DNA of 64,000 nucleotides, from NCBI RefSeq assembly GCF_003269065.1, contig NZ_QLTA01000001.1, positions 1-64,000 on the forward strand, read 5' to 3'. Below, piece by piece: positions 1 through 19,272 of the stretch (position 1 is the stretch's first letter; each line of letters begins with the position of its first letter). The stretch comes from Paracidovorax anthurii (lineage in GTDB: Bacteria > Pseudomonadota > Gammaproteobacteria > Burkholderiales > Burkholderiaceae_C). A program made the translations under genes and the position numbers. The notes below the pieces were generated by a model, which did no database searches, was not told where the DNA came from, and was given only the letters and a program-made list of their open reading frames with translations.

Positions 1-224
1 TGCCGCAGGGGCTGGCCGAACAGGCACTTGATGCTCAAGCAAAACTGGATGGCTGCGTCCGAGAACGTCGCGCTGCGACCGCGCTTGCCGCTGGGCATTG
101 CGAGCCACTGCATGCCTTCATCCAGCCACATCGTCAACGATCCTCGCGCCCTCAGCGCTGCGTTGTAGGCTTTCCAGTTCGTCGTGCGGTACTTGGTCCG
201 CCTCTCGCTCTTTGCTTCCGTCAC
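1..224 (-). CDS. IS5-family transposase, N-terminal part (runs off the left edge)
   Basis: Reading the minus strand from a GTG at 224 gives about 74 residues that match the N-terminus of IS5/IS903-group transposases: KYRTTNWKAYNAALRARGSL, then a WLDEGMQWL stretch, then GKRGRSATFSDAAIQFCLSI. The DDE catalytic domain would lie beyond base 1. No stop or frameshift is visible in the portion present, so the element could be intact. The GTG start is my choice because it precedes the conserved block and lies about 30 bases inside the terminal repeat. Confidence 0.75.
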   Translation of the reverse strand, partial: MTEAKSERRTKYRTTNWKAYNAALRARGSLTMWLDEGMQWLAMPSGKRGRSATFSDAAIQFCLSIKCLFGQPLR

Positions 225-270
225 GCCTTCAGTCTATCGGTGTGGCCGGGGTGATTTGTGCAACAAAGCC
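1..270 (-). mobile_element. End of an IS5-family (IS903-type) insertion sequence
   Basis: The left edge holds one end of an insertion sequence. Its terminal inverted repeat is the 18-mer gatttgtgcaacaaagcc at 253-270. Read outward-in this is GGCTTTGTTGCACAAATC, close to the IS903 end as I remember it. The 5' part of a transposase gene lies just inside on the minus strand. The other end and any target duplication are outside the window. The element borders the less GC-rich cluster at 370-6821 and may mark an island edge, or may have cut off an upstream gene. Confidence 0.8.
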
Positions 271-369
271 GTTATCTGCGAATGCAGCATGGCAGCGCCA
301 CGGATGGCGAGAGCATTCCGGAAAACCCCGGATTCGCGCGCAGAACCTGACCCCCGTAGAAGCAGAACC

Positions 370-1464
370 ATGGAAAGAAAAGCACTGACCCACGACGAGG
401 CTGTCCAGGAGGTTTATCGCCTGACGCCTCAGATCCGGGAATACGATGAATTCATGTACCTCGGTGTGCGCTGGCTGCCGTACACGATGTTCTTTCATCA
501 CACGAACTACCGGTCTGAGGTCATCAACACCGACGGCTTCGGTTTCCGCTACAGCGATTGGCAAGGGCGCCCACTGGGAGTGGAGAACATGCCGACCGAT
601 GCTCCGGTCAACCTGTTGATCGGCGGTTCGACCACGCTCGGCACGGGCGCCACCAGCGACGCCTGGACGGTGGCCTCCCGTCTTGCTGCGCACACGGGGC
701 AACCGTGGTTGAACCTGGGCGGACGCGGCTACAACGCAGTACAAGAATTGCTGCTGTTCATGATGCACCAGCATCGGTTCGGCCCGATCAACCATGTGGT
801 GGTATTCAGCGGCCTCAATACCCTGACCCTGGAAGGGCTGCCGGACGAATTGGCGACTGACCACGGTCGCTATTACTACTCGTTCGAGTACCAGCACTAC
901 ATGGACAAATACAACGACGACTTGAAGCGGCGGACCCGCACCTACGCTTCTGAACTGGATCGTCGCGGCAAGGGCTTTATCGCTCGCTATCTTGACAAGC
1001 TGCGCGGTGACGACAATCCCGCCGACCTCATCCTGACCGATGACCAGACAGACACCTCGACGCGGGTCGCGCGCGCTGCCTGGGTGGTCACCAATGCCCT
1101 GCGCCAATGGCAACTGCTCCTGGGAGGCTCTGGCGCCAAGCTCAGCTTCGTGTTGCAGCCGATGGCCTACTGGACCCGGCCGCAGTTGACATCGGAAGAG
1201 GCGGACATCTTCCACGCGATCGACAGCTGCCCGAACAATTTCTGGCGCCTGTTCAGCAAGATTCTGGGCCCGGAAATCCACGCCCCATTCGTCGATCCGA
1301 TTCGCACTTTCTGCACCAGCAACGGGCTCGCGTTCGCCGACATGAACGAATTGCTGCGTGATTCACCGCAACTCAATGATTACCTTTTCGTTGATCGGGT
1401 CCATTTCAACGACAAGGGCTATGACGAGGCCGCGCGACTGATCGCGACCCAGTTGGCGAAATGA
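370..1464 (+). CDS. SGNH/GDSL-family hydrolase of the carbamoyltransferase cluster
   Basis: This 364-residue protein has the SGNH hydrolase blocks in order: NLLIGGSTT with the likely nucleophile Ser87, a LNLGGRGYN glycine block, a VVFSGLN block with the oxyanion Asn, and C-terminal DRVHF with Asp342 and His345. Such enzymes remove or transfer acyl or ester groups. There is no signal peptide, so it is probably cytoplasmic. The frame stays open upstream into the insertion sequence, so a longer N-terminus is possible. ATG 370 was chosen because the sequence becomes protein-like there. It is the first gene of the co-oriented cluster, 30 bases before the small peptide gene. Its substrate is unknown. 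Confidence 0.75.
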   Translation: MERKALTHDEAVQEVYRLTPQIREYDEFMYLGVRWLPYTMFFHHTNYRSEVINTDGFGFRYSDWQGRPLGVENMPTDAPVNLLIGGSTTLGTGATSDAWTVASRLAAHTGQPWLNLGGRGYNAVQELLLFMMHQHRFGPINHVVVFSGLNTLTLEGLPDELATDHGRYYYSFEYQHYMDKYNDDLKRRTRTYASELDRRGKGFIARYLDKLRGDDNPADLILTDDQTDTSTRVARAAWVVTNALRQWQLLLGGSGAKLSFVLQPMAYWTRPQLTSEEADIFHAIDSCPNNFWRLFSKILGPEIHAPFVDPIRTFCTSNGLAFADMNELLRDSPQLNDYLFVDRVHFNDKGYDEAARLIATQLAK

Positions 1465-1483
1465 TCATTATTCCGCTTTAAAA

Positions 1484-1490
1484 AAGGAGT
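1484..1490 (+). promoter_or_regulatory. Strong ribosome binding site for the 39-residue peptide
   Basis: AAGGAGT lies 4-5 bases before ATG 1495. It is one of the strongest Shine-Dalgarno matches in the window and sits in the gap after the SGNH stop codon. It is the main reason to believe the small ORF that follows is translated. Confidence 0.7.
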
Positions 1491-1494
1491 TCAC

Positions 1495-1614
1495 ATGCCA
1501 TCCGTGCAATCTGAAAAAAAAGGCTTCTGGAGCCTGCTGCGTACCGTATTCGGCCGCCTGTTCTCCCGCAACAAAAAGAAAAAGCGCCAGAGCTCCATTT
1601 ATCCGCTGCGCTGA
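1495..1614 (+). CDS. Small cationic peptide (39 residues), candidate precursor or substrate peptide
   Basis: This short gene lies between the SGNH hydrolase and the carbamoyltransferase. The product begins MPSVQSEKKGFW, has an amphipathic stretch SLLRTVFGRLFSR, a basic NKKKKRQ run and a C-terminal tail SSIYPLR. It has no signal peptide and no cysteine. It could be a precursor peptide modified by the ATP-grasp ligase and carbamoyltransferase, a free cationic membrane-active peptide, or a small accessory protein. Support comes from its strong ribosome binding site, its place inside a tight co-oriented cluster and its biased composition. I recognise no family for it. Confidence 0.6.
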   Translation: MPSVQSEKKGFWSLLRTVFGRLFSRNKKKKRQSSIYPLR

Positions 1615-1680
1615 TATGGCCGTAGGCATTGCCTCTATTCCCGGCAAGAACGCTCACTGATTCCCCGACAAAAGAAAGAC

Positions 1681-3255
1681 ATGAAGATTTTTGCAATGAA
1701 GCCCGGCCACGACGGTGCGATCGCTTTTGTCGATGCCGCCGCTGGCAAGCTGGAATGGTCTCTGGAAGCGGAGAAAGACAGTTTCCCGCGCTTTGAAGTG
1801 TTCAATCCCGCGCAGATGGTGTACGCAGCGGAACAACTGGACGTGATGCCGGACGTGTTCGCCGTCAGCGGTTGGGGCAAAGGTTCGCTGGCCGCCAACG
1901 CGCCGATCGGTGCCGGCTATTACGGATGGAACGAGCAGGCGGTGCAGCAGCGCGCCACACGCATGTTCGGCCATGAGGTCCAATATTTCAGCAGCAGCCA
2001 TGAGCGCTCCCACCTGTGGTGCAGCTACGGCCTGTCGCCGTTCGAGCAGGGGCAGCCATGCTACGTGCTGGTGTGGGAAGGCGCGCTGGGCGACTTCTAC
2101 CAGATCGATGCCGATCTGCAGGTCAGCAGCCTGGGACGCGTGATGATGACGCCGGGCAACAAATACTCCTTCCTCTACGCCCTGGCAGATCCGAGCTTCA
2201 CGCTGCCCAGGGGCAAGCTGCGCAACGAAGACCCAGGCAAGCTGATGGCGCTGTGCGCGTTTGGCCAATCAGGGGAAATGGATGCGGATGAACGCAAGCT
2301 GACCGATTTCCTGCTTGAGCGCGACAGCATCCTCGCCACCCTGTCCAAAGAGGACATGCGCTGGAGCAAGTACTACAACATCGGGCTCGACCATCCAGAC
2401 TTCACACGCCTGGCGAAGCGCTATTCAGACGAGATATTCAACCGCTTCTATCTGTATGCCAAGAAGCATTTGACGAAGGGCTACCCGCTGTTGATTTCCG
2501 GGGGCTGCGGGTTGAATTGCGACTGGAACACGATGTGGCGCAACAGCGGCCTGTTCCAGGACGTGTTCATCCCGCCATGCACCAACGATACCGGGTCGGC
2601 GATCGGCACCGCAATCGATGCGATGCGCGAGTTCACCGGCAAAGCCAAGGTCAGCTGGAATGTTTATGCCGACCGGCCGTTCGTCGATGATCAGCCTGAC
2701 ATGCCGGATGTGGATGTCTATCCGCTCGATCTGCAGCAGGTGGCGACCTTCCTGGCACAGCAGAAAGTCGTGGCCTGGACGCAAGGGCATTGTGAGATCG
2801 GTCCGCGCGCACTGGGCAACCGATCGATCCTGGCGGCACCTTTCACCGATGGAATGCGCGATCGCCTGAATCACATCAAGAAACGTGAAGGCTTCCGCCC
2901 CGTGGCGCCTATTTGTCTGGAAGAGGACGTCAGCCAGCATTTCGAGTGGAGCGGGCCATCGCCACACATGCTGTATTTCCAGCAAGTGCGCAACCACGAT
3001 CTGCGCGCGATCACGCACATCGATGGCACCGCGCGCGCACAAACCGTGAACCCGACACAGAACCCGAACATGCACCGCCTGCTGAGCGCGTTCAAGCAGG
3101 TGGCCGGTGCTGGCGTTCTGTGCAATACCTCGCTGAATTTCAATGGCACGGGCTTCATCAACCGCACCAGCGATCTCTACCAATACTGCAAGAGCACCGG
3201 TATCGAGGGTTTTGTCTATGACGAGAAGTTCTGCGTGATCCGCGGTACGGCTTGA
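1681..3255 (+). CDS. NodU/CmcH-family carbamoyltransferase
   Basis: This 524-residue protein should transfer the carbamoyl group of carbamoyl phosphate, via carbamoyl-adenylate, to a hydroxyl or amine of a small molecule. The N-terminal Kae1-like domain starts MKIFAMKPGHDGAIA and contains SSHERSH, whose His107 and His111 fit the metal-binding HxxxH. A glycine-rich LISGGCGLNCDWN follows. The C-terminal domain carries the family signature GHCEIGPRALGNRS near residues 368-381, then FRPVAPICLEED and CNTSLNFNG. The loop usually written DGxGE reads WEGALGDF here, so Glu133 replaces the usual Asp. The protein is somewhat shorter than typical members. It sits between the peptide gene and the ATP-grasp gene. 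Confidence 0.88.
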   Translation: MKIFAMKPGHDGAIAFVDAAAGKLEWSLEAEKDSFPRFEVFNPAQMVYAAEQLDVMPDVFAVSGWGKGSLAANAPIGAGYYGWNEQAVQQRATRMFGHEVQYFSSSHERSHLWCSYGLSPFEQGQPCYVLVWEGALGDFYQIDADLQVSSLGRVMMTPGNKYSFLYALADPSFTLPRGKLRNEDPGKLMALCAFGQSGEMDADERKLTDFLLERDSILATLSKEDMRWSKYYNIGLDHPDFTRLAKRYSDEIFNRFYLYAKKHLTKGYPLLISGGCGLNCDWNTMWRNSGLFQDVFIPPCTNDTGSAIGTAIDAMREFTGKAKVSWNVYADRPFVDDQPDMPDVDVYPLDLQQVATFLAQQKVVAWTQGHCEIGPRALGNRSILAAPFTDGMRDRLNHIKKREGFRPVAPICLEEDVSQHFEWSGPSPHMLYFQQVRNHDLRAITHIDGTARAQTVNPTQNPNMHRLLSAFKQVAGAGVLCNTSLNFNGTGFINRTSDLYQYCKSTGIEGFVYDEKFCVIRGTA

Positions 3256-3270
3256 AAAAGGATGTCGTCC

Positions 3271-4620
3271 ATGAGCAAGAAGATTCTGTATGTCTATGCG
3301 CCGGCCGGGCCACCGCTGGACTATTGCTTTCCCAAGATCGCAGGACGTGGCGAGGTGTACACCTGCATCGTCAGTCCGCCGTCGGCCTCCAATATGGAGA
3401 TCCTGCGGCGCCACAGTCGCGAGGTGCATGATTTCAGCGATATCACGCCATCACAGGCATTGCAGCAGGTGCGAACGCTGGCGCAGCGGATACAGCCCGA
3501 TGCGATCTTCACGTTCTCTGAATTCCTGCTGAAATCGGTGGCCGAGATGGCCGCCGATTTCGGATTGCGCACGGTCGGCCCGAACATCGAGTTGGGCCGC
3601 AACAAGGTCTTGATGCGTGAATGCTGGCAGGCTGCCGGGATTCCGCAGCCTGCATTCCTGGCCATCCGGAACGAGCAGGAAATCGTGCGTGCCGCCGAGC
3701 TCAGATTTCCGATATTGGTGAAGCTGGCGTACGGCGCCGGTTCGATCGGCCAGCAGATCGTGCATGGCGTGGAGGAATTGCCAGACGCAATCACGCGCTT
3801 GATCGCCGCCACCGAAAGCGCGCGCAAGGCGGGCAAGCATGAGTTCTCGGAAAACGAGGGCTTTCCGCAGCTGATCGCGGAAGAAATCATCCAATCCACC
3901 ACCGAGTCCTGGTACGAAGAAGATGGCTACGGCGATTATCTGAGCGTGGAAGGGCTGGTGCGCGACGGCGTGTACTACCCGCTGGCGATGACGGGACGCC
4001 TTCGCACGATTCCGCCGTTCACCGAGCTGGGCAATCTCGCTCCCTGTGTATTGAACGACGATAAGAAGCAGAAGATCGTGCAGTTGATCACGCGCGCCAT
4101 CGATGCGCTGGGTTTCGAGAATTGCGCGACCCATACCGAACTCAAGCTGATGGCGGATGGGCAGGTGTCATTCCTGGAAACCGCCGCTCGCATGGGAGGC
4201 GTGGCGATCGCCAAAGAACTGGATGAAGTGTTCGGCCTGGATTATGTCGATCTGTTCCTGAGCGTGATCCTGGGCGAGCCGGCGCAGATCCCGGCCTTTG
4301 AACAGAATCCGCCGCGCTGCGCCGCCGCTTCGGTGGCCCTGATCGCCTGCGATAGCAGGGGAACACCTTGGCAAAGTGCGCGCAGCTTTGCACCAGAAAG
4401 GGTGAATTGGCCTGAATTGCTGGATGGCATGGCGAATGTGGATATCCAGTACGCGCAGTCGATCGTACCGGGCAGCCCGATGGCGCCTTACGACATTTCC
4501 GGTGGCTTGATGAACTACGCCGGACAGGCTTTCCTGACGAGCCCGACTCCGGCCGCGCTCAAGCGTGCCGCTTACAGGCTCCTGGACGGGCTGGAGCAGC
4601 GCCTGCCATCGCATTCCTGA
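3271..4620 (+). CDS. BacD-like ATP-grasp amino-acid/peptide ligase
   Basis: This 449-residue ATP-grasp enzyme should activate a carboxylate as an acyl phosphate and join it to an amine. The P-loop-like KLAYGAGSIGQQ fits the nucleotide-binding region. The metal and phosphate site is THTELKLM with Glu290, followed by FLETAARMGG with Glu303 and Arg307. The Ala-Ala-Arg form of that last motif resembles bacilysin synthetase BacD rather than the usual E-x-N-P-R. I chose ATG 3271 because AAAAAGGA at 3254-3261 gives proper spacing, whereas the ATG at 3262 abuts it. It is 15 bases after the carbamoyltransferase. Likely partners are amino acids or the nearby 39-residue peptide. Confidence 0.85.
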   Translation: MSKKILYVYAPAGPPLDYCFPKIAGRGEVYTCIVSPPSASNMEILRRHSREVHDFSDITPSQALQQVRTLAQRIQPDAIFTFSEFLLKSVAEMAADFGLRTVGPNIELGRNKVLMRECWQAAGIPQPAFLAIRNEQEIVRAAELRFPILVKLAYGAGSIGQQIVHGVEELPDAITRLIAATESARKAGKHEFSENEGFPQLIAEEIIQSTTESWYEEDGYGDYLSVEGLVRDGVYYPLAMTGRLRTIPPFTELGNLAPCVLNDDKKQKIVQLITRAIDALGFENCATHTELKLMADGQVSFLETAARMGGVAIAKELDEVFGLDYVDLFLSVILGEPAQIPAFEQNPPRCAAASVALIACDSRGTPWQSARSFAPERVNWPELLDGMANVDIQYAQSIVPGSPMAPYDISGGLMNYAGQAFLTSPTPAALKRAAYRLLDGLEQRLPSHS

Positions 4621-4694
4621 ACAGAGCCGGAGAAACGCTTGACCACACCCGCACCGCGCGACCGCCATTCCTGCCTGTGAAAGAGAGGGGCCAG

Positions 4695-5930
4695 ATGAAT
4701 CCATCGATCGATCCACGGCGCCTCAGCGCCGTTCTGTGGACAGTCAACCTGTCCTCGATAGCCGCGAGTGTGTTCAGCTATGTCTACCTGTCCTATTTCG
4801 TCTATCAGCGCACAGGCAATGTGCTGCTCTCGGAATGGGTGTTGCTGGCACCGATGGTCGTGCCCGTGCTGCTGTGCCTGTTGATCAGCCGCATCGCCAA
4901 TGCGGGTTCTCCCCGCAAGGTGCTGCTGCTCTGCAATGTCCTCTGTGCGGCCTGCGCGCTGCTGTGCTTTGGTCTGCTCGATCGGCACATCTGGCTCGCG
5001 CTCGTGGCGGCGCTGGTGATCGGCTTTCTCGACGCTCTGCAGCGGGTCGCACGCACGGTGGCGATCAAACGGTATTTTTCCACCGCCGACGTGAAGTACG
5101 CCGTTCCCATCACGCTGACCGCGCAGTTCATCGCGGGTGGCGTGGCGGGCATTGCTCTTGCCTTCTACCGCAGCGAGATCACTCCGCAAGTCGCGAATGC
5201 GATGGTATGCGCCGGCTTTTTGCTCGCAGTGGTGGCGGCCCGTCTGCTGCCGGCGGAGCAAGCGGCCCCGGTCGACGCTTCAGCGACTGCTGCAGCGCGA
5301 CTGCGCAATCCGCTCGTCCAATTGAGGCGGTTGCTGGCCGCGGATGCCAACCTGCGCCGCCATTTCTTCGCCTTTCTGATTTTCGTCAGCATCTTCCAGG
5401 GCTTCTTCAACGTCTCGCGCGTCACCCTGCCCTCCCACGTCCTGCGGCTCGATCAGTCCTGGGTGGGTTATCTGCAGATGATCAGCGCCGGCTCCGCGCT
5501 GCTGGGCGCGCTGTTGTTTGTCTGGCTGGTCAAGCAGAAGATCATCCTGGGCCGCCCAGCCAGGGTGATGCTGAGCGGGATCGCATTGCTGGCAATGGGC
5601 GGAGCGACCATGGTCGGGCAGCCTGTCGCCAGCTATTTTCTTTATTTCGTTTTCATGTTCGTCTGGGAAGTGCTGTTTTTCAAGTACCAGTCCGATCTGG
5701 TCGAGGTCACGCCCTCCGACCAGATGGCGCTGGTGGCCACGTTCCAGTATGCGGGGGTGTATCTGGGCATGCTGGTGACCGGCACCCTGGGGGGCATATT
5801 GACCAGCCATATCGGCCTGCCCGCCTGCGCACTCATTTTCGCGCTGGTCTATCTGGTCCTGATGCCACTGAATGCGCTGCACGGACGGCAGGCGGGTGGC
5901 CAGACCGCGTCCGCTCCAACGAATGTCTGA
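4695..5930 (+). CDS. MFS transporter, probable exporter of the cluster product
   Basis: The 411-residue protein is almost entirely hydrophobic, with about 12 membrane segments and a short charged loop between the two halves near residues 195-220. It fits the drug-efflux branch of the major facilitator superfamily. The ATG at 4695 was chosen because GAGAGGGG lies 5-12 bases before it; a GTG at 4677 is in frame but less convincing. Similar ligase plus MFS pairs occur in bacilysin and dapdiamide loci, where the transporter exports the peptide product and protects the producer. Export of this cluster's product is inferred from context. Confidence 0.8.
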   Translation: MNPSIDPRRLSAVLWTVNLSSIAASVFSYVYLSYFVYQRTGNVLLSEWVLLAPMVVPVLLCLLISRIANAGSPRKVLLLCNVLCAACALLCFGLLDRHIWLALVAALVIGFLDALQRVARTVAIKRYFSTADVKYAVPITLTAQFIAGGVAGIALAFYRSEITPQVANAMVCAGFLLAVVAARLLPAEQAAPVDASATAAARLRNPLVQLRRLLAADANLRRHFFAFLIFVSIFQGFFNVSRVTLPSHVLRLDQSWVGYLQMISAGSALLGALLFVWLVKQKIILGRPARVMLSGIALLAMGGATMVGQPVASYFLYFVFMFVWEVLFFKYQSDLVEVTPSDQMALVATFQYAGVYLGMLVTGTLGGILTSHIGLPACALIFALVYLVLMPLNALHGRQAGGQTASAPTNV

Positions 5931-5931
5931 T

Positions 5932-6032
5932 ACGGGTTTGCAATCAAAGAGAGAACAAGGCGCGAAGCCGCAGACAGTGCTACAGCACGGCAAGGCGAAG
6001 CAACGCAGTTATCTTTTTGATTGCGAAACCGT
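5932..6032 (+). repeat. About 100-base imperfect inverted repeat between two cluster genes
   Basis: The arms ACGGGTTTGCAATCAAA and TTTTGATTGCGAAACCGT are near-perfect reverse complements. The centre is the palindrome GTGCTACAGCAC flanked by CGAAGC/GCTTCG pairs. The whole gap between the MFS stop and the hydrolase can fold into one long cruciform or RNA hairpin. It is either a small mobile palindrome or a hairpin damping expression of the last gene. I have the impression of similar sequences in related genomes but could not check. Confidence 0.65.
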
Positions 6033-6050
6033 ATGAAAGGAAGAAGCAAG

Positions 6051-6821
6051 ATGCCGCAGAATATTCCGCTGGTCATGGTGCATGGGCTGTTCGGACCTTT
6101 GCACTACTTCGATCCGGCAGAGCGCATGCCGGGAATCACGGTGCTGACGCCAGACCTGCTGGGCTATGGCAACCAGGCGCCCCAGACACAACTGAGCCTG
6201 TCGGCACAGGCCGATGAATTGGCGGGCATTCTGCGCACGCAGGTAGCAAGGCCATGCCATCTGCTCGGCCATAGCGTGGGTGGGGCGGTTGCGGTGCTGA
6301 CAGCGGCTCGCGTGCCCGAGTTGGTGAAAAGCATCGTCAGCGTTGAAGGCAATTTCACGCTGGACGACGCCTTTATGTGCCGCCGTATCGCCGCAATGCA
6401 GCCAGACGAATGGGCCGCCGAACTGCGGGGTATCCAGGGTGATCCGGTGGCATGGTTGTCCCGAGGCGACATCGAGGCCACCCCGGAGCGACTGCAGATG
6501 GCGCAGTGCATCCTGCACAACCAGACGGCCACGACGCTGTGGCTGATGGCTCGCGCCGTGGTGGAGGAAACCGCCGTTCCGGGTTACCTGCAAGCAGTGC
6601 GGCAGATCATGGAACGCGGCATTCCATTCCATCTCCTGGCCGGCAGCAGATCCGCGCAAGGCTGGAACGTACCCAGCTGGGTTCGCCAAGGCGCGAGCAG
6701 CGATGCCGTGCTGCCGAACTGTGGTCACATGATGATGCTGGAGGAGCCGGACCTGTTTTGCGAGCATCTCTCGCGATGCCTGTATTCCAGGGCCGACTCA
6801 GCGATGCCGTCCACGCCGTGA
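6051..6821 (+). CDS. Alpha/beta hydrolase, last gene of the cluster
   Basis: This 256-residue alpha/beta hydrolase has the oxyanion-hole MVHGLFG near its start, the nucleophile elbow LLGHSVGG with Ser75, and the catalytic His226 in PNCGHMMM. ATG 6051 is preferred because AAAGGAAG ends eight bases before it. In the cluster it could cleave an ester, act as a thioesterase or peptidase, or inactivate the product for self-protection. The sequence does not decide between these. It is separated from the MFS gene by the long inverted repeat, and the less GC-rich composition ends close after it. Confidence 0.8.
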   Translation: MPQNIPLVMVHGLFGPLHYFDPAERMPGITVLTPDLLGYGNQAPQTQLSLSAQADELAGILRTQVARPCHLLGHSVGGAVAVLTAARVPELVKSIVSVEGNFTLDDAFMCRRIAAMQPDEWAAELRGIQGDPVAWLSRGDIEATPERLQMAQCILHNQTATTLWLMARAVVEETAVPGYLQAVRQIMERGIPFHLLAGSRSAQGWNVPSWVRQGASSDAVLPNCGHMMMLEEPDLFCEHLSRCLYSRADSAMPSTP

Positions 6822-6950
6822 TGTAAGGCGCCGGGCATGGCCAGCCGGGCTGGGATACCGGCCGGGCCACGGCGTTGCCTGGAGGAGCTCCGCACGACTG
6901 CGCTCTCGTCGGCAGCTTCTGGTGGCCTGAAGGCGGAATGGTTCGCGGAT

Positions 6951-9610
<2,660 letters not shown>

Positions 9611-9649
9611 GCGCGGCATGCCGCCCAGCACACCCGGCGGGAGCCCGGC

Positions 9650-10867
9650 TTGACGCAGGACGCCCCCGGCGCCATCCGCGCCTTCCACATCCAGCCGCAG
9701 GGCGTCCGCGAGCTGGACGCCATCCCGCAGCGCCTGCCCGCGCAGGGCTTCGTGTGGATCGCCTGCACGCGCGCGGCGTTCGGCGCGCAGTTGCCTGCCC
9801 TGCAGGCCGCGCTGCAGGCGCTGGCCGGCCAGCAGCTCGTCGATCTGCACGTGTCGGACCTGCTCAATGCGCAACTGCCCTCGCATTACGACTACACCTC
9901 GCAATACGACGTGCTGGTGTTCCGCCGCCTGAGCGCGACGCAGTGCGACACGAACACGGTGCCGGCCCCGGCGGGCGCGGGGGCCGGCAAGCGCTCCGGC
10001 CCGCCGGTGCTGCGCCGCATCGACACCAGCCCCGTGGGCTTCGCGGTGTTCGACCAGGTGCTGCTGTCGGTGCACCCGGGCGACTGCACGGTGCGCGATG
10101 CGTTCGCGGCGCGCCTGCTCGCGGCGTCCCAGCCGCCGGCACCGCCCGCCCCGGCACCCACCGAGCCCGCCGCGGGCATGCCCGCGCCGCCCTCGGAGAC
10201 CCTGGCGCGCGAGCTGCGCACCAGCCCCGTGCCCGGCTCGCGCCTGCCCACCAGCCCGGCGGACCTGATGCTGCGCGTGGTGAACCTGATCGTGGACAAC
10301 TACCTCGACCTGCGCCGCGAGCTGTCGCGCCAGCTCGACCACTGGCAGGGCGAGCTGCTCAAGCCGCGCGCGCGCTTCGCGAACTGGAGCGCCCTGCTGG
10401 ATGCGCGCCTCACGCTGCACCAGCTCGACGAGATCTGCGAGGACCAGCGCGCCGCCGTGCAGGACTGGGTGGACACGCTGGAGACCTGGGTCCTGCCCGA
10501 CAGCGTGGCGGCGCTGCGCGAGCTGGACCTGCTCAAGGTGCGCAGCCGCGACGTACTGGAGCACATCGAGCGCGTGGTGCACCACGTGCGCCGGCTGGAG
10601 CAGAGCACCGAGACCGCCGTGCAGATGCACTTCAGCGTGCAGAGCAACCGCACCAACGACATCATGCGCACGCTCACGGCGCTCACCGCCGTGTTCCTGC
10701 CGCTGAACCTGATCGCGGGCATCTTCGGCATGAACTTCGAGTTCATCCCCCTCATCCACAAGCAGGACGGCTTCTGGTGGGCGATGGGCTCGATGACCGT
10801 GATCGCCGTCGCGCTCGTGGCGCTGTTCTGGCGCAAGCGCTACCTGGCCCGCACGGGCCACCACTGA
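9650..10867 (+). CDS. corA: CorA-family divalent cation transporter
   Basis: This 405-residue protein has the CorA layout: a large cytoplasmic N-terminal domain, a long helix region around residues 240-340, and two C-terminal membrane helices. The pore signature GMN lies in LIAGIFGMNFEF. These channels move Mg2+, Co2+ or related ions. No ATG fits, since the nearest upstream ATG at 9618 meets a stop at once, so a TTG start at 9650 preceded by GGCGGGAG is used. A low-complexity linker rich in Ala and Pro near residues 155-190 is unusual. It lies 39 bases after hemB. Confidence 0.85.
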   Translation: MTQDAPGAIRAFHIQPQGVRELDAIPQRLPAQGFVWIACTRAAFGAQLPALQAALQALAGQQLVDLHVSDLLNAQLPSHYDYTSQYDVLVFRRLSATQCDTNTVPAPAGAGAGKRSGPPVLRRIDTSPVGFAVFDQVLLSVHPGDCTVRDAFAARLLAASQPPAPPAPAPTEPAAGMPAPPSETLARELRTSPVPGSRLPTSPADLMLRVVNLIVDNYLDLRRELSRQLDHWQGELLKPRARFANWSALLDARLTLHQLDEICEDQRAAVQDWVDTLETWVLPDSVAALRELDLLKVRSRDVLEHIERVVHHVRRLEQSTETAVQMHFSVQSNRTNDIMRTLTALTAVFLPLNLIAGIFGMNFEFIPLIHKQDGFWWAMGSMTVIAVALVALFWRKRYLARTGHH

Positions 10868-10882
10868 CCCACCCACGCCGCC

Positions 10883-11632
10883 ATGCCCTCATCCGCCGCC
10901 ACCCCCCTTCCCATCGTGATCGCCCGGACCGGCGGCACCTTCGAGGTGCTGCGCGGCCGCCTGGGCGACTTCGCGGACTGGGTGCGCACCGGGCTCGCGG
11001 CGGAGGCCGGCGGCCTGCCCGTCACGGTCGTGGACGCCGCCGCGGGCGCACCCTTGCCCGAGCCCGGCGCCATCGCCGGCGTGGTGCTGACCGGCTCGCA
11101 CGCCATGGTGACGGATCGCGCCGGCTGGAGCGAGGGGCTGGGCCGGTGGCTGGCGCGGGCGGTGGCGGCGCGCACGCCCGTGCTGGGCATCTGCTACGGC
11201 CACCAATTGCTCGCGCATGCGCTGGGCGGCGAAGTGGCGGACCATCCGGACGGGCTGGAGATCGGCACCGTGGAAGTCCACCCCGAGCCGGCCGCGGCCG
11301 CCGGCGATGCGCTCTTCGCCCCGCTGCCTGCGGCCTTCGCCGCGCAGGTCGTGCACCATCAGTCGGTGCGGCGCCTGCCACCCGGCGCGGTGCGCCTCGC
11401 GGGCAACGCGTTCGAGCCGCACCAGGCGTTCCGCGTGGGCCCTTGCGCCTGGGGCGTGCAGTTCCATCCGGAATTCGGCGCGGCGGCGATGCAGGGCTAC
11501 ATCGACACCCTCGCGCCCGAGCTGCGCGCGGCCGGCCACGATCCGCAGCGGCTGGGCGATGCCGTCCGCGCCACGCCCGAGGCCGCCGGGCTGCTGCCGC
11601 GTTTCGCTCGCCTGTGCGCCCGGGGCGCCTGA
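10883..11632 (+). CDS. Class I glutamine amidotransferase-like protein
   Basis: This 249-residue stand-alone class I amidotransferase has the nucleophile elbow LGICYGHQLLAHALGG with the catalytic Cys and the C-terminal QFHPEFG with His and Glu. VLTGSHAMVTD near residue 75 is the oxyanion region. Such proteins resemble the GuaA amidotransferase half. They commonly act as gamma-glutamyl hydrolases or of unknown substrate. It lies 15 bases after the corA-like gene and could share its transcript. Nothing in the neighbourhood identifies a substrate. Confidence 0.82.
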   Translation: MPSSAATPLPIVIARTGGTFEVLRGRLGDFADWVRTGLAAEAGGLPVTVVDAAAGAPLPEPGAIAGVVLTGSHAMVTDRAGWSEGLGRWLARAVAARTPVLGICYGHQLLAHALGGEVADHPDGLEIGTVEVHPEPAAAAGDALFAPLPAAFAAQVVHHQSVRRLPPGAVRLAGNAFEPHQAFRVGPCAWGVQFHPEFGAAAMQGYIDTLAPELRAAGHDPQRLGDAVRATPEAAGLLPRFARLCARGA

Positions 11633-11702
11633 GCCCCCTTTTTCCCCTCCCGCCCGGCCACCCTCCGCCGCGGATCCCGCAGCACGGAAAGCCCTTGCCA
11701 TT

Positions 11703-11730
11703 GACATTATTTGATTAGTCAATTAATGTC
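11703..11730. promoter_or_regulatory. 28-base palindrome, probable MarR operator
   Basis: The arms GACATTA and TAATGTC enclose an inner inverted pair TTGA/TCAA. Twelve of the 14 possible pairs match. It ends six bases before the marR start codon and is strikingly AT-rich against its surroundings. This position and shape fit an autoregulatory operator that controls marR and the efflux genes behind it. Confidence 0.75.
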
Positions 11731-11736
11731 GCGTCC

Positions 11737-12219
11737 ATGACTTCTTCGAACGATTCCGTCGATCCCGAGTTCATCGAGCAGAGCGTGGGCTACCAGATGC
11801 GGCGCATCGTGAACCTGATGGCCTGCGCGGTGGACCAGCGCATGGAGCCCCTGGGCCTGACCGACGCGCAGTGGAAGCCGCTGCTGCGCCTCTTCCTGGC
11901 CCCCGGCCAGGAGAGCACCGTGGCCGCCCTGGCGCGCGGCTGCCAGCTCGACGCCGGCGGCATGACCCGGCTGCTGGACCGGCTGGAGGCCAAGGGCCTG
12001 TGCCGCCGCGAGCGATCGCAGGAGGACCGCCGCGTGGTCAATCTGGCGCTCACGCCCGAAGGCCTGGACACGGCCCGGCAACTGCCCGACCTGCTCACGG
12101 ACCTGCAGCAGACCGCGCTGCACGGCTTCAGCGACGCGGAGACCGCCCAGTTCCGCCAATACCTGGGCCGCATCTACGACAACCTCGGCACGCGGCTGCC
12201 GCCGCCGGACGGCGAGTAA
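11737..12219 (+). CDS. MarR-family repressor of the Emr-type efflux operon
   Basis: This 160-residue winged-helix protein resembles EmrR/MarR. The recognition region is STVAALARGCQLDAGGMTRL, followed by the wing motif SQEDRRVVNLALTPEG. Flanking N- and C-terminal helices would form the dimer. MarR repressors release DNA when phenolic or other small ligands bind. It is the first gene of a four-gene run with the outer-membrane factor, EmrA and EmrB, and a 28-base palindrome precedes it. Autorepression and control of the pump are inferred from this layout. Confidence 0.88.
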   Translation: MTSSNDSVDPEFIEQSVGYQMRRIVNLMACAVDQRMEPLGLTDAQWKPLLRLFLAPGQESTVAALARGCQLDAGGMTRLLDRLEAKGLCRRERSQEDRRVVNLALTPEGLDTARQLPDLLTDLQQTALHGFSDAETAQFRQYLGRIYDNLGTRLPPPDGE

Positions 12220-12256
12220 GCCCGCCTCCGCCTTTTCCCCAGAGAGCACGCACAAC

Positions 12257-13786
12257 ATGAAAAAACTTCTGGCTCCCTCCCCCGCCCTCTCCGCCGCGCC
12301 CCGCTGGCACGGCGCGGCGCAGTATTTCGGCACCCTGGCCTTCGCACTGCTGGGCCTCACGGCCTGCGCAGACATGTCGGGCATCGCGCCCCAGGCCCGC
12401 ATGCGCGACGCCGCGTCGCTCGGGCTCGCGGCCCAGGCGCAGGGCGTGGCCGATGCCGCCCGCGCCTTCGCCGACCCCGCCGTGGCGGCCGACTGGTGGC
12501 GCGGCTTCGGCAATGCGCAGCTCGACGCGCTCGTCGATCAGGCCCTGGCCCAGAGCCCGAGCCTGAAGCTCGCCGAGGCGCGCATCGCACGGGCCGAAGC
12601 CTTCACCGAGACCGCCCGCGCGGCGGACCACCCGCAGGTGAACGGCAGCCTGGACGCCACCCGCCAGCGCTACAGCGCCAACGGCCAGTTCCCCCCGCCG
12701 CTCGCCGGCAGCACCGAGAACAGCGCCACGGGCCGCCTCACGGGCAACTGGGAGCTGGACTTCTTCGGGAAGAACCGCGCGGCGATCGACGCCGCCGTGG
12801 GCAGCGCCAACGCCGCCATCGCCGATGCCCAGGCCGCGCGGGTGCTGCTGGCCGCCAACGTGGTGCGCCAGTACGTGGAGCTGGCGCGGCTGCAGGCGCA
12901 GTCGGAGGTGGCCGAGCGCACGCTCGCGCAGCGCACCGAGACCCTGGCCCTGGTGCGCGATCGCGTGGCCGCCGGCCTGGACACGCGCCTGGAAGAGCAG
13001 CAGAGCGAGGGCAGCCTGCCCGAGACGCGCCAGCAGATCGAGGCGCTGCGCGAGCAAACCGCGCTGGCCCGCAACGCACTGGACGCGCTGGTGGGCCAGC
13101 CGGGCGCGGCGCAGGCGCTGGCCGTGCCGCCGCTCGCATCGCTGCGGCCCATCGCCCTGCCCGCCACGCTGCCGGCCGACCTGCTGGGCCGCCGCGCCGA
13201 CATCGCCGCCGCGCGCTGGCGCGTGGAGGCCGCCACGCAGGACGTGGCCGTGGCGCGCGCGCAGTTCTATCCGAACGTGAGCCTCACCGCCTTCGTGGGC
13301 CTGTCCTCGCTGGGGCTGGACAACTTCGCCAAGGGCGGCAGCCGCGAATGGGGCGTGGGCCCGGCGATCCGCCTGCCGATCTTCGAGGCGGGCCAGCTGC
13401 GCGCCAACCTGCGCGGCAAGGCCGCCGACGTGGACGCCGCCGTGGAGAGCTACAACGCCGCCCTGCTCGATGCCGTCCACGAGGCCGCCGACCAGATCGC
13501 CTCGGCCCGCTCCATCGAGCGGCAGACGGCCGAGCAGCAGCGGGCGCAGCAATCCGCCGAGAACGCCTACGCCATCGCGCAGCAGCGCTACGGGGCCGGC
13601 CTGGGCAACTACCTGAACGTGCTCACCGCCGAGACCAGCGTGCTGCAGCAGCGCCGCCAGGCGGTGGACCTGGCCGCGCGGCGCCTGGACAGCCAGGCCC
13701 GACTCTCCCGGGCGCTGGGCGGCGGCTATGCCGCTCCGGCGCAGGACGTGGCCGCCGCGGCGCCGTCCCGGGCCGAAGCCCACTGA
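12257..13786 (+). CDS. Outer-membrane efflux factor, NodT/TolC lipoprotein type
   Basis: This 509-residue protein carries a signal peptide ending in the lipobox LTAC, so it should be a lipid-anchored outer-membrane factor. The start of the mature domain, DWWRGFGNAQLDALVDQALA, is typical of the NodT/OprM family. Two long coiled-coil repeats are visible, with LSLTAFVGLSSLGLD-like barrel segments between them. It should form a trimer that completes a tripartite pump with EmrA and EmrB. It follows marR by 37 bases. Confidence 0.88.
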   Translation: MKKLLAPSPALSAAPRWHGAAQYFGTLAFALLGLTACADMSGIAPQARMRDAASLGLAAQAQGVADAARAFADPAVAADWWRGFGNAQLDALVDQALAQSPSLKLAEARIARAEAFTETARAADHPQVNGSLDATRQRYSANGQFPPPLAGSTENSATGRLTGNWELDFFGKNRAAIDAAVGSANAAIADAQAARVLLAANVVRQYVELARLQAQSEVAERTLAQRTETLALVRDRVAAGLDTRLEEQQSEGSLPETRQQIEALREQTALARNALDALVGQPGAAQALAVPPLASLRPIALPATLPADLLGRRADIAAARWRVEAATQDVAVARAQFYPNVSLTAFVGLSSLGLDNFAKGGSREWGVGPAIRLPIFEAGQLRANLRGKAADVDAAVESYNAALLDAVHEAADQIASARSIERQTAEQQRAQQSAENAYAIAQQRYGAGLGNYLNVLTAETSVLQQRRQAVDLAARRLDSQARLSRALGGGYAAPAQDVAAAAPSRAEAH

Positions 13787-13860
13787 CATACCCGCCGCCG
13801 GCCCGCCCTTTCGCCTCCCTTTTCCCCCTCCGACGCCCTCGCCGCGCAGGAAAGACCGCC

Positions 13861-15234
13861 ATGAACGCACCGCAAGCCCCCTCCGCCACCGCCACCGCCC
13901 TCCCGCCGCAGGACGCCAAGGCCCGCCGCCGCAAGACCCTCATCTCGCTGGCCGCCGTCGCCGTCGTGGCCGGCGCCGCCTGGGGCGCCTACGAATGGCT
14001 CGTCGCCAGCCACTACGAGAACACCGACAACGCCTACGTGCAGGGCAACGTCATCCAGATCACGCCGCAGACCGGCGGCACGGTGATGTCCATCATGGCC
14101 GACGACACCGACTTCGTGACGGCCGGCGCGCCGCTGGTCAAGCTCGATCCGGCCGATGCGCGCGTGGCGCTCGCGCAGGCCGAGGCCGGGCTCGCGCAGG
14201 CGGTGCGGCAGGCCCGCACGCTCTACGTGAACAACGGCTCGCTGGCCGCGCAGGTGACGCTGCGCCAGGCCGACGTCACCCGCGCGCGCACCGACGTGGC
14301 GCGCGCGCAGGACGACCTGCAGCGCCGCCAGTCGCTCACGGGCAACGGCGCCGTCTCGCGCGAGGAGCTGCACCACGCGCAGAACCAGCTCGACGCCGCG
14401 CGCGCCGCGCTGGCGGCCGCCGAGGCCGGCGTGGCCGCCGCGCGCGAGCAGCTCACCAGCAACCAGTCGCTCACCCAGGGCGTGCCGGTGGAAGAGCACC
14501 CCAACGTGCTCGCCGCCGCCGCCAAGGTGCGCGAGGCCTTCCTGGCCGACCGCCGCACCGCCCTGCCCGCGCCCGTGGACGGCTACGTGGCCCGGCGCAG
14601 CGTGCAATTGGGCCAGCGCGTGGCCGCCGGCACGCCGCTCATGACCATGGTGCCGCTGAACCAGGTCTGGGTGGACGCCAACTTCAAGGAGAACCAGTTG
14701 CGCAACCTGCGCCTGGGCCAGCCCGCCACGCTGACGGCCGACCTCTACGGCAAGAAGGTGGAATACACCGGCAAGGTGGTGGGCATGGGCGTGGGCACGG
14801 GCGCGGCCTTCGCGCTGCTGCCCGCGCAGAACGCCACCGGCAACTGGATCAAGGTGGTGCAGCGCGTGCCCGTGCGCATCGCCCTCGACGGCGAGCAGCT
14901 CAAGGCCAACCCGCTGCGCGTGGGCCTGTCGATGGACGTGACGGTGAACACGCAGGACCGCGGCGGCGCGCTGCTGGCCGGCGCGCCACGCGGGCAGGCG
15001 GTGGCGCAGACCGCCGTCTATGCCGACCTGGACAAGGGCGCCGACGAGGACGTGGCCCGCATCATCGCGGCCAACGCCGGCCCGCAGGCAGGCGGCGCGA
15101 ACGCCCTCGCCAGCGCCCGGCCAGCCCTGGCGCGCGGCGGCGAGGCGCACGCACGGCACGCGCAGCCCTCCCGGGCCGTGCAGACGGCCGAAGCCGCGCA
15201 CGCCGCCAACCCCGCCGGCGGCGCGGTGCACTGA
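13861..15234 (+). CDS. emrA: EmrA-type periplasmic adaptor of the efflux pump
   Basis: This 457-residue membrane fusion protein has one N-terminal helix, LISLAAVAVVAGAAWGAYEW, followed by the HlyD signature ENTDNAYVQGNVIQITPQTG. Two long alpha-helical hairpin stretches follow, then PAPVDGYVARRSVQLGQRV and VWVDANFKENQL, both typical of EmrA. It should bridge EmrB and the outer-membrane factor. The C-terminal 50-60 residues are an Ala- and Gly-rich tail not found in E. coli EmrA and are probably disordered. Confidence 0.9.
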   Translation: MNAPQAPSATATALPPQDAKARRRKTLISLAAVAVVAGAAWGAYEWLVASHYENTDNAYVQGNVIQITPQTGGTVMSIMADDTDFVTAGAPLVKLDPADARVALAQAEAGLAQAVRQARTLYVNNGSLAAQVTLRQADVTRARTDVARAQDDLQRRQSLTGNGAVSREELHHAQNQLDAARAALAAAEAGVAAAREQLTSNQSLTQGVPVEEHPNVLAAAAKVREAFLADRRTALPAPVDGYVARRSVQLGQRVAAGTPLMTMVPLNQVWVDANFKENQLRNLRLGQPATLTADLYGKKVEYTGKVVGMGVGTGAAFALLPAQNATGNWIKVVQRVPVRIALDGEQLKANPLRVGLSMDVTVNTQDRGGALLAGAPRGQAVAQTAVYADLDKGADEDVARIIAANAGPQAGGANALASARPALARGGEAHARHAQPSRAVQTAEAAHAANPAGGAVH

Positions 15235-15289
15235 CCCTCCGGGCGGCGCGCCCGGCCTTTGAAAAAACACTCCAACACCCGAAGCGCCC

Positions 15290-16858
15290 ATGTCCTCTCC
15301 CACCCACACCCCGCCCCTGGCGCCGCCGCCGCTCGACGGCAACGCGCGCCTGTGGGGCACGCTGGCCCTCTCCGCGGCCACGTTCATGAACGTGCTGGAC
15401 ACCTCGATCGCCAACGTGTCCCTGCCGGCCATCGCGGGCGACCTGGGCGTGAGCCCCACGCAGGGCACCTGGGTCATCACCAGCTTCGCGGTGGCCAACG
15501 CCATCGCCGTGCCGCTCACGGGCTGGCTGTCGCAGCGCTTCGGGCAGGTGCGCCTGTTCGTGGCGAGCGTGACGCTGTTCGTGATCGCCTCGCTGCTGTG
15601 CGGCATCGCGCCCAACATGACGCTGCTGATCGCCTTCCGTGCGCTGCAGGGCTTCGTGGCAGGGCCGATGATCCCGCTGTCGCAGTCGCTGCTGCTCTCC
15701 AGCTACCCGCGCGCGCTCGCGGGGCTGGCCATGGCGATGTGGTCGATGACCACGCTCATCGCGCCCGTGATGGGGCCGCTGCTGGGCGGCTGGATCACCG
15801 ACAACATGACCTGGCCGTGGATCTTCTACATCAACGTGCCCGTGGGCATCGCGGCCGTGGTGGTCACCTGGGGCATCTTCCGCCGCCGCGAGACCGAGCG
15901 GCGGGTGCTGCCCATCGACTCCATCGGCCTCGCGCTACTGGTCGTCTGGGTGGCGGCCATGCAGGTGATGCTGGACATCGGCAAGGAGCACGACTGGTTC
16001 GAGTCGCCCTGGGTGGTGGCCTGCGCCCTCGTGGCGGCCGCGGGCTTCGTGGTCTTCCTGGTCTGGGAGCGCGGCGAGGAGCACCCCGTGGTGGACCTCT
16101 CGCTCTTTCGCATCCGCAACTTCTGGGCCGGCGCGCTCGCCACCTCGGTGGGCTACGGGCTCTTCTTCGGCAACGTGGTGCTGCTGCCGCTGTGGCTGCA
16201 GCAGTACATGGGCTACACCGCCACGCAGGCCGGCATGGTGATGGCGCCCGTGGGGCTGCTCGCGCTGGTGCTCTCGCCCGTGGTGGGCAAGAACATCGCC
16301 AAGGTGGACCCGCGCCGCTTCGCGACCTTCGCCTTCCTCGTGTTCGCGCTGGTGCTGTGGATGCGCTCGCGCTTCAACACCCAGGCGGACCTGATGACCA
16401 TCATGGTGCCCACCCTCATCCAGGGCATCGCCATGGCGTTCTTCTTCATCCCGCTGGTGACCCTCACGCTCTCGGAGATCGCGCCGGCGCGCATCCCGTC
16501 GGCCTCGGGGCTATCGAACTTCATGCGCATCACGGCGGGCGCCATCGGCACCTCGGTCTCGACCACGCTCTGGGAGCGCCGCGCCACGCTGCACCACGCG
16601 CAGCTCACCGAGGGGCTGCAGCAGGGCGCGCAGGTGCCGGCGCAGGTTCTGCAGGGGCTGCAGGGCGCGGGCCTCACGCCCGAGCAGGCGCTGGCGCAGG
16701 TGGAGCGGCTGGTGAACCAGCAGGCCTTCATGATGGCCGCCAACGACATCTTCCTGGCCTCGGCCGTGCTGTTCCTGCTGTTGATCCCGCTGGTGTGGCT
16801 GGCCCACCCGGTGCGCGCGAGCGCGGGCAGCGCCGACGCGGCGGCTGGCGCGCACTGA
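15290..16858 (+). CDS. emrB: EmrB-type 14-helix MFS multidrug exporter (DHA2)
   Basis: This 522-residue protein is a DHA2-family proton antiporter. Motifs include the helix-1 block NVLDTSIANVSLPAIAGDLG, motif A GWLSQRFGQVRLF and the motif C-like block MTTLIAPVMGPLLGGWITDN. About 14 membrane segments are visible. Together with the upstream emrA-like and outer-membrane factor genes it should export hydrophobic drugs or uncouplers. It ends the operon; a GC-rich hairpin at 16871-16897 follows. Confidence 0.92.
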   Translation: MSSPTHTPPLAPPPLDGNARLWGTLALSAATFMNVLDTSIANVSLPAIAGDLGVSPTQGTWVITSFAVANAIAVPLTGWLSQRFGQVRLFVASVTLFVIASLLCGIAPNMTLLIAFRALQGFVAGPMIPLSQSLLLSSYPRALAGLAMAMWSMTTLIAPVMGPLLGGWITDNMTWPWIFYINVPVGIAAVVVTWGIFRRRETERRVLPIDSIGLALLVVWVAAMQVMLDIGKEHDWFESPWVVACALVAAAGFVVFLVWERGEEHPVVDLSLFRIRNFWAGALATSVGYGLFFGNVVLLPLWLQQYMGYTATQAGMVMAPVGLLALVLSPVVGKNIAKVDPRRFATFAFLVFALVLWMRSRFNTQADLMTIMVPTLIQGIAMAFFFIPLVTLTLSEIAPARIPSASGLSNFMRITAGAIGTSVSTTLWERRATLHHAQLTEGLQQGAQVPAQVLQGLQGAGLTPEQALAQVERLVNQQAFMMAANDIFLASAVLFLLLIPLVWLAHPVRASAGSADAAAGAH

Positions 16859-16870
16859 CCCCGCGGGGGG

Positions 16871-16897
16871 TGCCGCCGCCCCCGGAGGGTGGCGGCA
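16871..16897 (+). terminator. GC-rich hairpin after emrB
   Basis: TGCCGCC and GGCGGCA form a seven-base stem around a C/G-rich loop 12 bases after the emrB stop. There is no T-run, so it may only slow transcription or stabilise the transcript end. It is weak as an intrinsic terminator. Confidence 0.4.
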
Positions 16898-16899
16898 CA

Positions 16900-16922
16900 T
16901 TTGCTACTACTTCAATAGCAAA
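16900..16922. repeat. Short dispersed palindrome TTTGCTA...TAGCAAA
   Basis: Perfect seven-base arms surround a nine-base centre. Related GCTAT/ATAGC palindromes occur at 29184-29200 and 34789-34804, with a half copy near 37995. All are AT-rich islands between GC-rich genes. I regard them as one dispersed intergenic family. Confidence 0.6.
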
Positions 16923-17041
16923 CTATTGATGATTTACGGCGACATGGAGCCATTTCGACCCCAAACCATGCGCCAGAGGCTCCCGCGAAGCCCTGGAACA
17001 CCGCGCCGGGCCCGGAGCACGGGCCCGGCGTTCACGCCGTG

Positions 17042-17731
17042 TCAGCCGATGTGCTTCGCGAAGAACGCCAGCGTGCGCTCGCGCGCCGTGTTCGCGGCGG
17101 CTTCGTCGTAGGAGCCGCGCTGCTCGCAGTTGAAGCCGTGGTCGGCTTCGTAGATGTGGGCCTCGACCCCGGGGTGGGCCTTGCGGAAGGCCTCCACGCC
17201 GTCGAGCGGGATGTAGTGGTCGCGCGTGCCGAAGTGGGCGATCACCGGGCTGCGCGGCGTGCGGGCGGCCTCCTCGGGCGCCGTGATGCCGCCGCCGTAA
17301 TAGACCGCCGCGGCCGCGAGGCCGTGCAGCGCGCAGGCCGAGCGCCAGCTCAGCAGGCCGCCCCAGCAGTAGCCCACGATGCCGACCTTGCCGCCGCCCT
17401 CGCGCGCCGCATGGTCGATGGCGGCCTGGATGTCGGGCAGCACGCCCGCGCCGGGCAGGGCGTCCACCTGCAGCTTGAGCCCGAAGCCCTCCTTCATGTC
17501 GACCTCGGTGTAGCCCAGCTCCACGCCGGGCCGCACGCGCGCGAACGTGGCGGGCGCCACGGCCAGGTAGCCCGCGGCCGCGTAGCGGTCGGCCACGGAG
17601 CGGATGTGCGAATTGACGCCGAAGATCTCCTGCAGCACCACCACGGCACCGCGCGGCGCGCCTTCGGGCCGCGCCACCCAGGCCGGCACCTTGAAACCGT
17701 CGGCCGAGGCCAGATCCACGAAACTGCCCAT
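17042..17731 (-). CDS. Dienelactone hydrolase family protein
   Basis: This 229-residue alpha/beta hydrolase matches the dienelactone hydrolase family. Landmarks are VVVLQEIFGVNSHIR, the nucleophile elbow VGYCWGGLLSW with cysteine in place of serine, HFGTRDHYIP with the catalytic Asp, and YEADHGFNCE with the His. True enzymes open dienelactones in chlorocatechol breakdown, but many members serve other or unknown substrates. No aromatic-degradation genes are nearby. The start MGSFVDLASADG at 17731 was chosen as the family-typical N-terminus. It is divergent from the SDR gene. Confidence 0.87.
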   Translation of the reverse strand: MGSFVDLASADGFKVPAWVARPEGAPRGAVVVLQEIFGVNSHIRSVADRYAAAGYLAVAPATFARVRPGVELGYTEVDMKEGFGLKLQVDALPGAGVLPDIQAAIDHAAREGGGKVGIVGYCWGGLLSWRSACALHGLAAAAVYYGGGITAPEEAARTPRSPVIAHFGTRDHYIPLDGVEAFRKAHPGVEAHIYEADHGFNCEQRGSYDEAAANTARERTLAFFAKHIG

Positions 17732-17843
17732 GCTGTCACTCCTTCGTTGTTGCCTGTGAGAATTGCGCCCCGCACCGGGGAGCGGCGGACCGGCCGCCGC
17801 GGTGCTGTAATCGCGCCACGGCATTCTTGCAGGAGACGCAGCC

Positions 17844-18593: not shown

Positions 18594-18635
18594 CCCGGAC
18601 ATGCCCGGAACCACGCAAACGGACACGAGAACACC

Positions 18636-19271: not shown

Positions 19272-19272
19272 C

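Follow-up and report, generated by a model that had tools for sequence, protein, structure and literature searches.

The gvg cluster of Pseudomonas fluorescens WH6 is responsible for the biosynthesis of 4-formylaminooxyvinylglycine (FVG), a natural herbicide and antibiotic whose biosynthetic route has been described as unknown (PMC8067088). GvgA, GvgB, GvgC, and GvgF are required for FVG (Table 1 of PMC8067088), and knock-outs of gvgR, A, B, C, F, G, and H in WH6 abolish the antibacterial and herbicidal phenotype; the role of GvgB, which is approximately 30% lysine, is called unclear (PMC8067088). Clusters termed gvg-like share the core genes gvgA, gvgB, gvgC, and gvgF, and occur in at least eight variants, in hosts such as Acinetobacter, Pantoea, Burkholderia, and Streptomyces; their peptide gene is often unannotated (Davis et al., PMC8064604). 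In the crocagin (cgn) cluster of Chondromyces crocatus, CgnD has been shown in vitro to cleave the leader from a short, basic peptide whose last residues are Ile-Tyr-Trp (PMC10070186). Here, we describe a locus at the start of a 64,000-nucleotide stretch of the Paracidovorax anthurii genome (the window). Its six co-oriented genes encode an SGNH hydrolase, a 39-residue peptide, a carbamoyltransferase, a ligase, a major facilitator superfamily (MFS) exporter, and an alpha/beta hydrolase (Table 1). Most likely, it represents a new subtype of gvg-like, peptide-based cluster that was acquired by horizontal transfer, has been split by an insertion sequence (IS), and may be impaired. The initial annotation, made from the DNA alone, had called these genes; all six open reading frames (ORFs) are confirmed and their domain assignments hold, including the combination of a NodU-type carbamoyltransferase, a BacD-like ligase, and an exporter.

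The SGNH-peptide pair and its relatives

The window SGNH protein carries the triad S87, D342, and H345 and is a member of the family of CgnD, the leader protease of crocagin, a ribosomally synthesized and post-translationally modified peptide (RiPP). By this kinship, it is a probable leader peptidase of the GvgA/CgnD family. The adjacent 39-mer is composed of a basic, amphipathic leader and the conserved C terminus SIYPLR. Both proteins align with their counterparts in locus L077 of Pseudomonas chlororaphis PCL1601, which comprises an SGNH gene, a SIYPMF peptide, an oxygenase, LysE, a carbamoyltransferase, a class III aminotransferase, a formyltransferase, and a further LysE, with a weak arginine-deiminase-family match where the amidinotransferase gvgD is expected. 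This set equals the published gvg gene content (PMC8067088, Table 1), and the window pair therefore corresponds to gvgA-gvgB. The earlier view that the gene set has no characterized counterpart is thus only partly upheld: no exact match to a characterized pathway was found, but the locus is not free-standing, its SGNH and peptide genes being gvgA and gvgB of published gvg-like clusters.

Relatives of the SGNH protein were taken from plasmids (tblastn, five loci) and from genome contigs (profile scan, best 80 of 107), which together with the window and locus L013 gives 87 loci. Within the genus, a match with E <= 1e-10 occurs in 1 of 17 genomes, the strain's own. Each of the five plasmid genes is followed by a short basic ORF ending in S-[IT]-Y-P-[LM]-[RF]. 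A GvgF-type carbamoyltransferase is found in 67 of the 87 loci, the window being scored as positive because its copy lies on a second contig, C109. Under a strict pattern (terminal [STG]-x-Y-P-[LMS]-[RF], with five basic residues among the final 30), a peptide ORF is present in 64 of the 67 positive loci and in 0 of the 20 negative loci. The invariance of the peptide end is partly built into this pattern; the presence/absence contrast is not, and it rules out a chance ORF. A looser pattern adds a TIYPLF peptide in L059. The 65 ORFs end in SIYPMF (43), SIYPLR (13), TIYPMF (3), SSYPLR (2), SIYPLF (2), STYPLR (1), and SVYPSR (1), and with the exception of L059, peptides ending in R and those ending in F are separated by the main split in the GvgF tree (18 versus 49 rows, support 100/100). 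The last 30 residues have a median net charge of +7, and the C terminus is nearly constant even though the neighboring genes vary between loci. Among seven loci closely related to L077, differences in the peptide ORF are mostly silent (138 versus 49 nucleotide differences; the pairs are not independent), as expected for a translated ORF. A LysW/AmCP-type carrier protein was rejected since the C terminus of the 39-mer does not fit.

The strain holds a second, different gvg-like cluster, L013 (G000:C20, 274-11516), with ATP-grasp and MFS genes on the minus strand and, on the plus strand, a sulfotransferase, an SGNH gene, a 27-residue peptide ending in SIYPMF, an oxygenase, a carbamoyltransferase, and a pyridoxal phosphate (PLP) enzyme of Cys/Met metabolism. 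A near-copy is observed in Enterobacter sp. RIT418 (L082; PLP enzyme 70%, sulfotransferase 52%, MFS 52%, and ATP-grasp 51%).

The insertion sequence and the probable link to contig C109

Position 1 of the window is base 1 of contig C1, which opens inside an IS that we take to be IS5/IS903-like from its end sequence. The IS end in the window matches 24 places in the genome, its own copy included, 11 of which start no more than 100 bases from a contig start. The opposite IS end matches 16 places, one of them at the right end of contig C109 (L014; 4857 bp). The nine bases directly outside the IS are identical on the two contigs (ten, if one IS-end base is counted), which is what a target-site duplication predicts. 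C109 encodes a GvgC-like double oxygenase of the haem-oxygenase fold (Haem_oxygenas_2, 7.8e-16), a GvgF-type carbamoyltransferase (Carbam_trans_N, 3.2e-96), and, from position 4566, a small GvgG-like membrane ORF that is broken by the IS. Similar small membrane ORFs were found by eye between the carbamoyltransferase and SGNH genes of two other loci, L030 of Nostoc parmelioides and L031 of Pseudomonas sp. Irchel 3A7, and in the tree of 67 GvgF-type proteins, the C109 copy clusters with those of L030 and L031 (support 99/96). From the IS ends, the nine-base repeat, and the tree, C109 and the window appear to be one cluster split by the IS. Its upstream genes would then sit on C109, so that the extent of 370 to 6821 first proposed is valid for the six genes but not for the cluster, which would not begin at 370; the oxygenase and the main carbamoyltransferase are beyond the IS. 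The order across both contigs would be a GvgC-like oxygenase, a GvgF-type carbamoyltransferase, an interrupted GvgG-like ORF, the IS, SGNH, a GvgB-like peptide, a second carbamoyltransferase, a BacD-like ligase, MFS, and an alpha/beta hydrolase. In agreement with the transfer suggested by the initial annotation, the IS end is real, and the GC content beside it is low (0.577-0.633 over positions 1-7000 versus 0.693-0.760 over 7001-22000). Among plasmids, the nearest DNA is that of Comamonas, at about 75%. Other stretches below most of the window in GC are positions 32001-34000 (0.609-0.641) and 60001-61000 (0.556).

L030 and L031 are the only other compared loci with a window-type second carbamoyltransferase and ligase. 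Both adopt the order oxygenase, carbamoyltransferase, SGNH, peptide, second carbamoyltransferase, and ligase, followed by the MFS gene directly in L031 and after one amidotransferase gene in L030. The same gene order, for which a search in other genomes had been recommended, is therefore found in two, and the homologs do co-occur.

Similar to the WH6 gvg cluster, the locus contains gvgA, gvgB, gvgC, gvgF, and a gvgG-like ORF once C109 is added. The gvg-like core is distributed over the SGNH and lysine-rich peptide genes of the window and the GvgC- and GvgF-type genes of C109, the contig presumed to be linked. Of the complete FVG gene set, the class III aminotransferase gvgH and the formyltransferase gvgI are absent from the six window genes and from C109, the two stretches covered. 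The main differences from WH6 are the gene order (C-F-G-A-B rather than A-B-C-F), an R-ended peptide rather than SIYPMF, and the addition of the second carbamoyltransferase, the ligase, and MFS. The portions of PMC8064604 considered here make no mention of a ligase-bearing variant. The crocagin cluster likewise has a CgnD-type SGNH protein, a short basic peptide with Ile-Tyr near its end, an iron oxygenase, and a carbamoyltransferase. The peptide here ends in SIYPLR in place of IYW and lacks Tyr-Trp, a YW ending is seen in 0 of 65 peptide ORFs (the search pattern required YP), and the oxygenase has the haem-oxygenase fold, in contrast to CgnC of crocagin.

For a model of the GvgC-like protein of L031, the nearest folds among the best 50 entries listed are SznF, RohS, and HrmI, N-oxygenases of the haem-oxygenase fold. 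A GvgC-type gene is absent from seven peptide-bearing relatives, all seven of which have a PhyH-type gene, versus 0 of 58 with GvgC. The seven (L027, L029, L033, L038, L040, L107, and L109) carry one of two dissimilar PhyH-type dioxygenases in place of GvgC.

The second carbamoyltransferase, ligase, and exporter

GvgF and the second carbamoyltransferase (GdmN match, 1e-34) fall into separate families; the latter matches its L030 and L031 counterparts at 69%. It is of the NodU/CmcH type, retaining the Carbam_trans N and C domains with the metal and adenylation motifs seen in active enzymes, whose residues presumably have the corresponding roles. Matches with E <= 1e-60 occur in 4 of 17 genus genomes (the strain's own and three others) and 1 of 399 order genomes (its own). 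Viral contigs gave no match to the protein. Relatives are located in varied plasmid loci. Three of these, carried by Mesorhizobium, Rhizobium, and Sinorhizobium plasmids (L015-L017; 58-61%), include two near a type I polyketide synthase. Another, on Salmonella enterica plasmid NZ_CP030205.1 (L021; 53%), is followed by thymidylate synthase, inosine/xanthosine triphosphatase, amidohydrolase, and MFS annotations and looks like a nucleoside-type pathway. The window SGNH has a match in 0 of the 7 plasmid loci with such a relative (L015-L021), and a basic SIYP-type ORF is seen in 0 of the 6 searched (all except L016). A Leisingera SGNH gene between two carbamoyltransferases (L018) was set aside, having sugar-polymer-like surroundings and no tblastn match to the window SGNH.

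The ligase matches Protein Data Bank entry 3wo1 (3.5e-42) and has the conserved E and R motifs of the BacD type. It matches the BacD model NF053745 at 2.6e-42 with a score of 144.8 bits, well short of the equivalog cut-off of 850. Relatives are found at 57% in L030 and 61% in L031; among the 88 loci compared, only these two and the window exceed 100 bits, and E <= 1e-50 is reached in 1 of 369 class genomes, the strain's own. The window MFS matches that of L031 at 44%, and the alpha/beta hydrolase has a 38% homolog adjoining the L031 cluster on the other strand.

Bacilysin and dapdiamide loci share the BacD-like ligase and MFS exporter. They differ in that the ligase here is far below the BacD cut-off, none of the six genes is an anticapsin gene, and a peptide and protease are present. 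The std RiPP cluster of Streptomyces thermodiastaticus also has a NodU-like carbamoyltransferase whose substrate is a ribosomal peptide, but contains a fused S8/S53 peptidase, YcaO and MNIO enzymes, and an unrelated precursor (PMC13174530).

Table 1. Features of the window and a related group of loci
Feature	Position	Strand	Basis or remark
Right end of IS element	1-270	-	transposase N-terminal ORF 3-224; contig begins within IS
9-bp direct repeat, probable target-site duplication	271-279	.	same word at C109 (L014) 4687-4695
SGNH hydrolase, GvgA/CgnD family	370-1464	+	364 aa; Lipase_GDSL_2 4.1e-10 (Pfam)
GvgB-like peptide	1495-1614	+	39 aa; AGGAG at 1485-1489; no family match
C-terminal SIYPLR of 39-mer, probable core or docking/modification site	1594-1611	+	sequence; tally of endings
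Second NodU/CmcH-type carbamoyltransferase (CarbTw)	1681-3255	+	524 aa; Carbam_trans_C 1.4e-54, Carbam_trans_N 8.7e-21
BacD-like ATP-grasp amino-acid ligase	3262-4620	+	452 aa; ATP-grasp_4 3.7e-8
MFS exporter	4677-5930	+	417 aa; MFS_1 8.5e-15; later ATG start also possible
Alpha/beta hydrolase	6033-6821	+	Abhydrolase_6 2.5e-18
VanZ-family gene, marks return to GC-rich chromosome	6951-8168	opposite to the six genes	domain match
SGNH-only Pseudomonas loci	L043-L047, L049, L050, L052-L056, L058, L061-L065, L078, L080		

Proposed pathway and alternative readings

Overall, we consider it probable that the six genes form the right-hand portion of a peptide-based biosynthetic cluster of the gvg-like kind which an IS has split, with a GvgB-type peptide as precursor or carrier. 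The gene content, the family relationships, and the co-occurrence of the peptide with the enzyme set are established, and from these we infer the enzymatic steps. The basic leader of the 39-mer would recruit the enzymes, and the oxygenase and GvgF-type carbamoyltransferase would act on the SIYPLR end or on a group borne by it. The SGNH enzyme would hydrolyze the leader off, like CgnD, the second carbamoyltransferase would carbamoylate the freed unit, the ligase may couple an amino acid to it, and the MFS protein would export the product. The initial annotation had named a carbamoylated dipeptide or a modified peptide as the product; a modified peptide or peptide-borne small molecule is the better fit, and a bacilysin-like dipeptide the poorer, because the SGNH protein is kin to a RiPP leader protease.

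Several observations weigh against this proposal. FVG consists of one amino acid that cannot readily be traced to SIYPMF; a classical precursor role for the peptide therefore leaves FVG unexplained, whereas a carrier role could account for it. A role of the latter kind, as in scaffold-peptide pathways, would lift the conflict. In addition, 20 Pseudomonas loci contain the SGNH gene but neither a carbamoyltransferase nor a peptide gene (Table 1), and the SGNH enzyme is therefore not bound to this peptide everywhere; these loci form one clade, nested among R-type loci, and thus represent one evolutionary event rather than 20. Those of them that were read by eye have a LysE-like gene upstream. Pattern searches found no peptide ORF in L041 and L104, in which the carbamoyltransferase is present, and Foldseek gave no match with E <= 0.001 to the oxygenase model among the best 50 entries listed. 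Genes resembling cgnB or cgnE were not noticed, nor was a Peptidase_M29 match among the Pfam-scanned genes; CgnB and CgnE match no Pfam family (PMC10070186), so a Pfam scan cannot exclude them here. Peptide modification and cleavage are predictions throughout the gvg-like systems, and this copy of the cluster may be inactive because the IS interrupts its GvgG-like ORF.

The peptide could instead be a docking or membrane-anchoring helper rather than a substrate, its basic, amphipathic part keeping it at the membrane and its fixed C terminus docking one enzyme, with the SGNH protein an ordinary esterase acting on a small-molecule product. The basic, amphipathic leader with its median charge of +7, a C terminus that hardly varies while neighboring genes differ, the lack of an obvious peptide-derived part in FVG, and the SGNH-only clade are all consistent with this role. 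We regard it as doubtful, since the sole close relative with a known function, CgnD, is a protease that cleaves the leader from a similar short basic peptide, and a swappable oxygenase is easier to reconcile with a shared substrate than with one fixed partner for docking. A carbamoylated dipeptide made from free amino acids by the carbamoyltransferase and the ligase, with the SGNH protein and 39-mer incidental, would agree with the conserved BacD-like motifs of the ligase and with the resemblance of the ligase-MFS pairing to bacilysin and dapdiamide loci. It is improbable given that the peptide and SGNH genes are the conserved elements (peptide in 64 of 67), that the ligase (3 of 88 loci) and second carbamoyltransferase are variable, and that the NF053745 score is far below its cut-off. 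Finally, GvgA- and GvgC-type proteins might be regulators and not pathway enzymes, as gvgA and gvgC knock-outs reduce transcription of the whole gvg cluster (PMC8067088) and iopA/iopB are reported to promote phenazine production (PMC3684763). Knock-outs of the aminotransferase gene gvgH also reduce gvg transcription (PMC8067088), however, and product feedback can therefore explain the effect; both families retain catalytic-type residues, and CgnD is an enzyme, which makes a regulatory role highly improbable.

This kind of cluster is already known, and it is the ligase-bearing subtype and the link of GvgA/GvgB to CgnD/CgnA that are new relative to the literature searched, in which no published account of either was found (most subscription journals lie outside it, and one may be in print). 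Why a pathway to one small amino acid should have a 28-residue lysine-rich ORF and an "esterase" has hitherto been a puzzle; once GvgA is linked to an RiPP leader protease of proven function and GvgB to a short, basic precursor peptide, a concrete, testable scheme emerges, and a CgnD-family SGNH gene next to a small ORF ending in S-I-Y-P-x-x provides a search key. We see as evenly balanced the wider proposal that GvgB is a ribosomal precursor or carrier and GvgA its CgnD-type protease both here and in the FVG pathway, placing FVG, crocagin, and dozens of uncharacterized clusters in one lineage. If true, a lineage of peptide-borne small molecules would extend across Pseudomonadota, Actinomycetota, and Cyanobacteriota. 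Its peptides would fall into two classes by their C terminus (mostly YPMF and YPLR), its oxygenase would be interchangeable, either a double haem-oxygenase-fold N-oxygenase or a PhyH dioxygenase working at the same S-I-Y-P site, and the window would represent a branch to which a second carbamoyltransferase and a ligase have been added.

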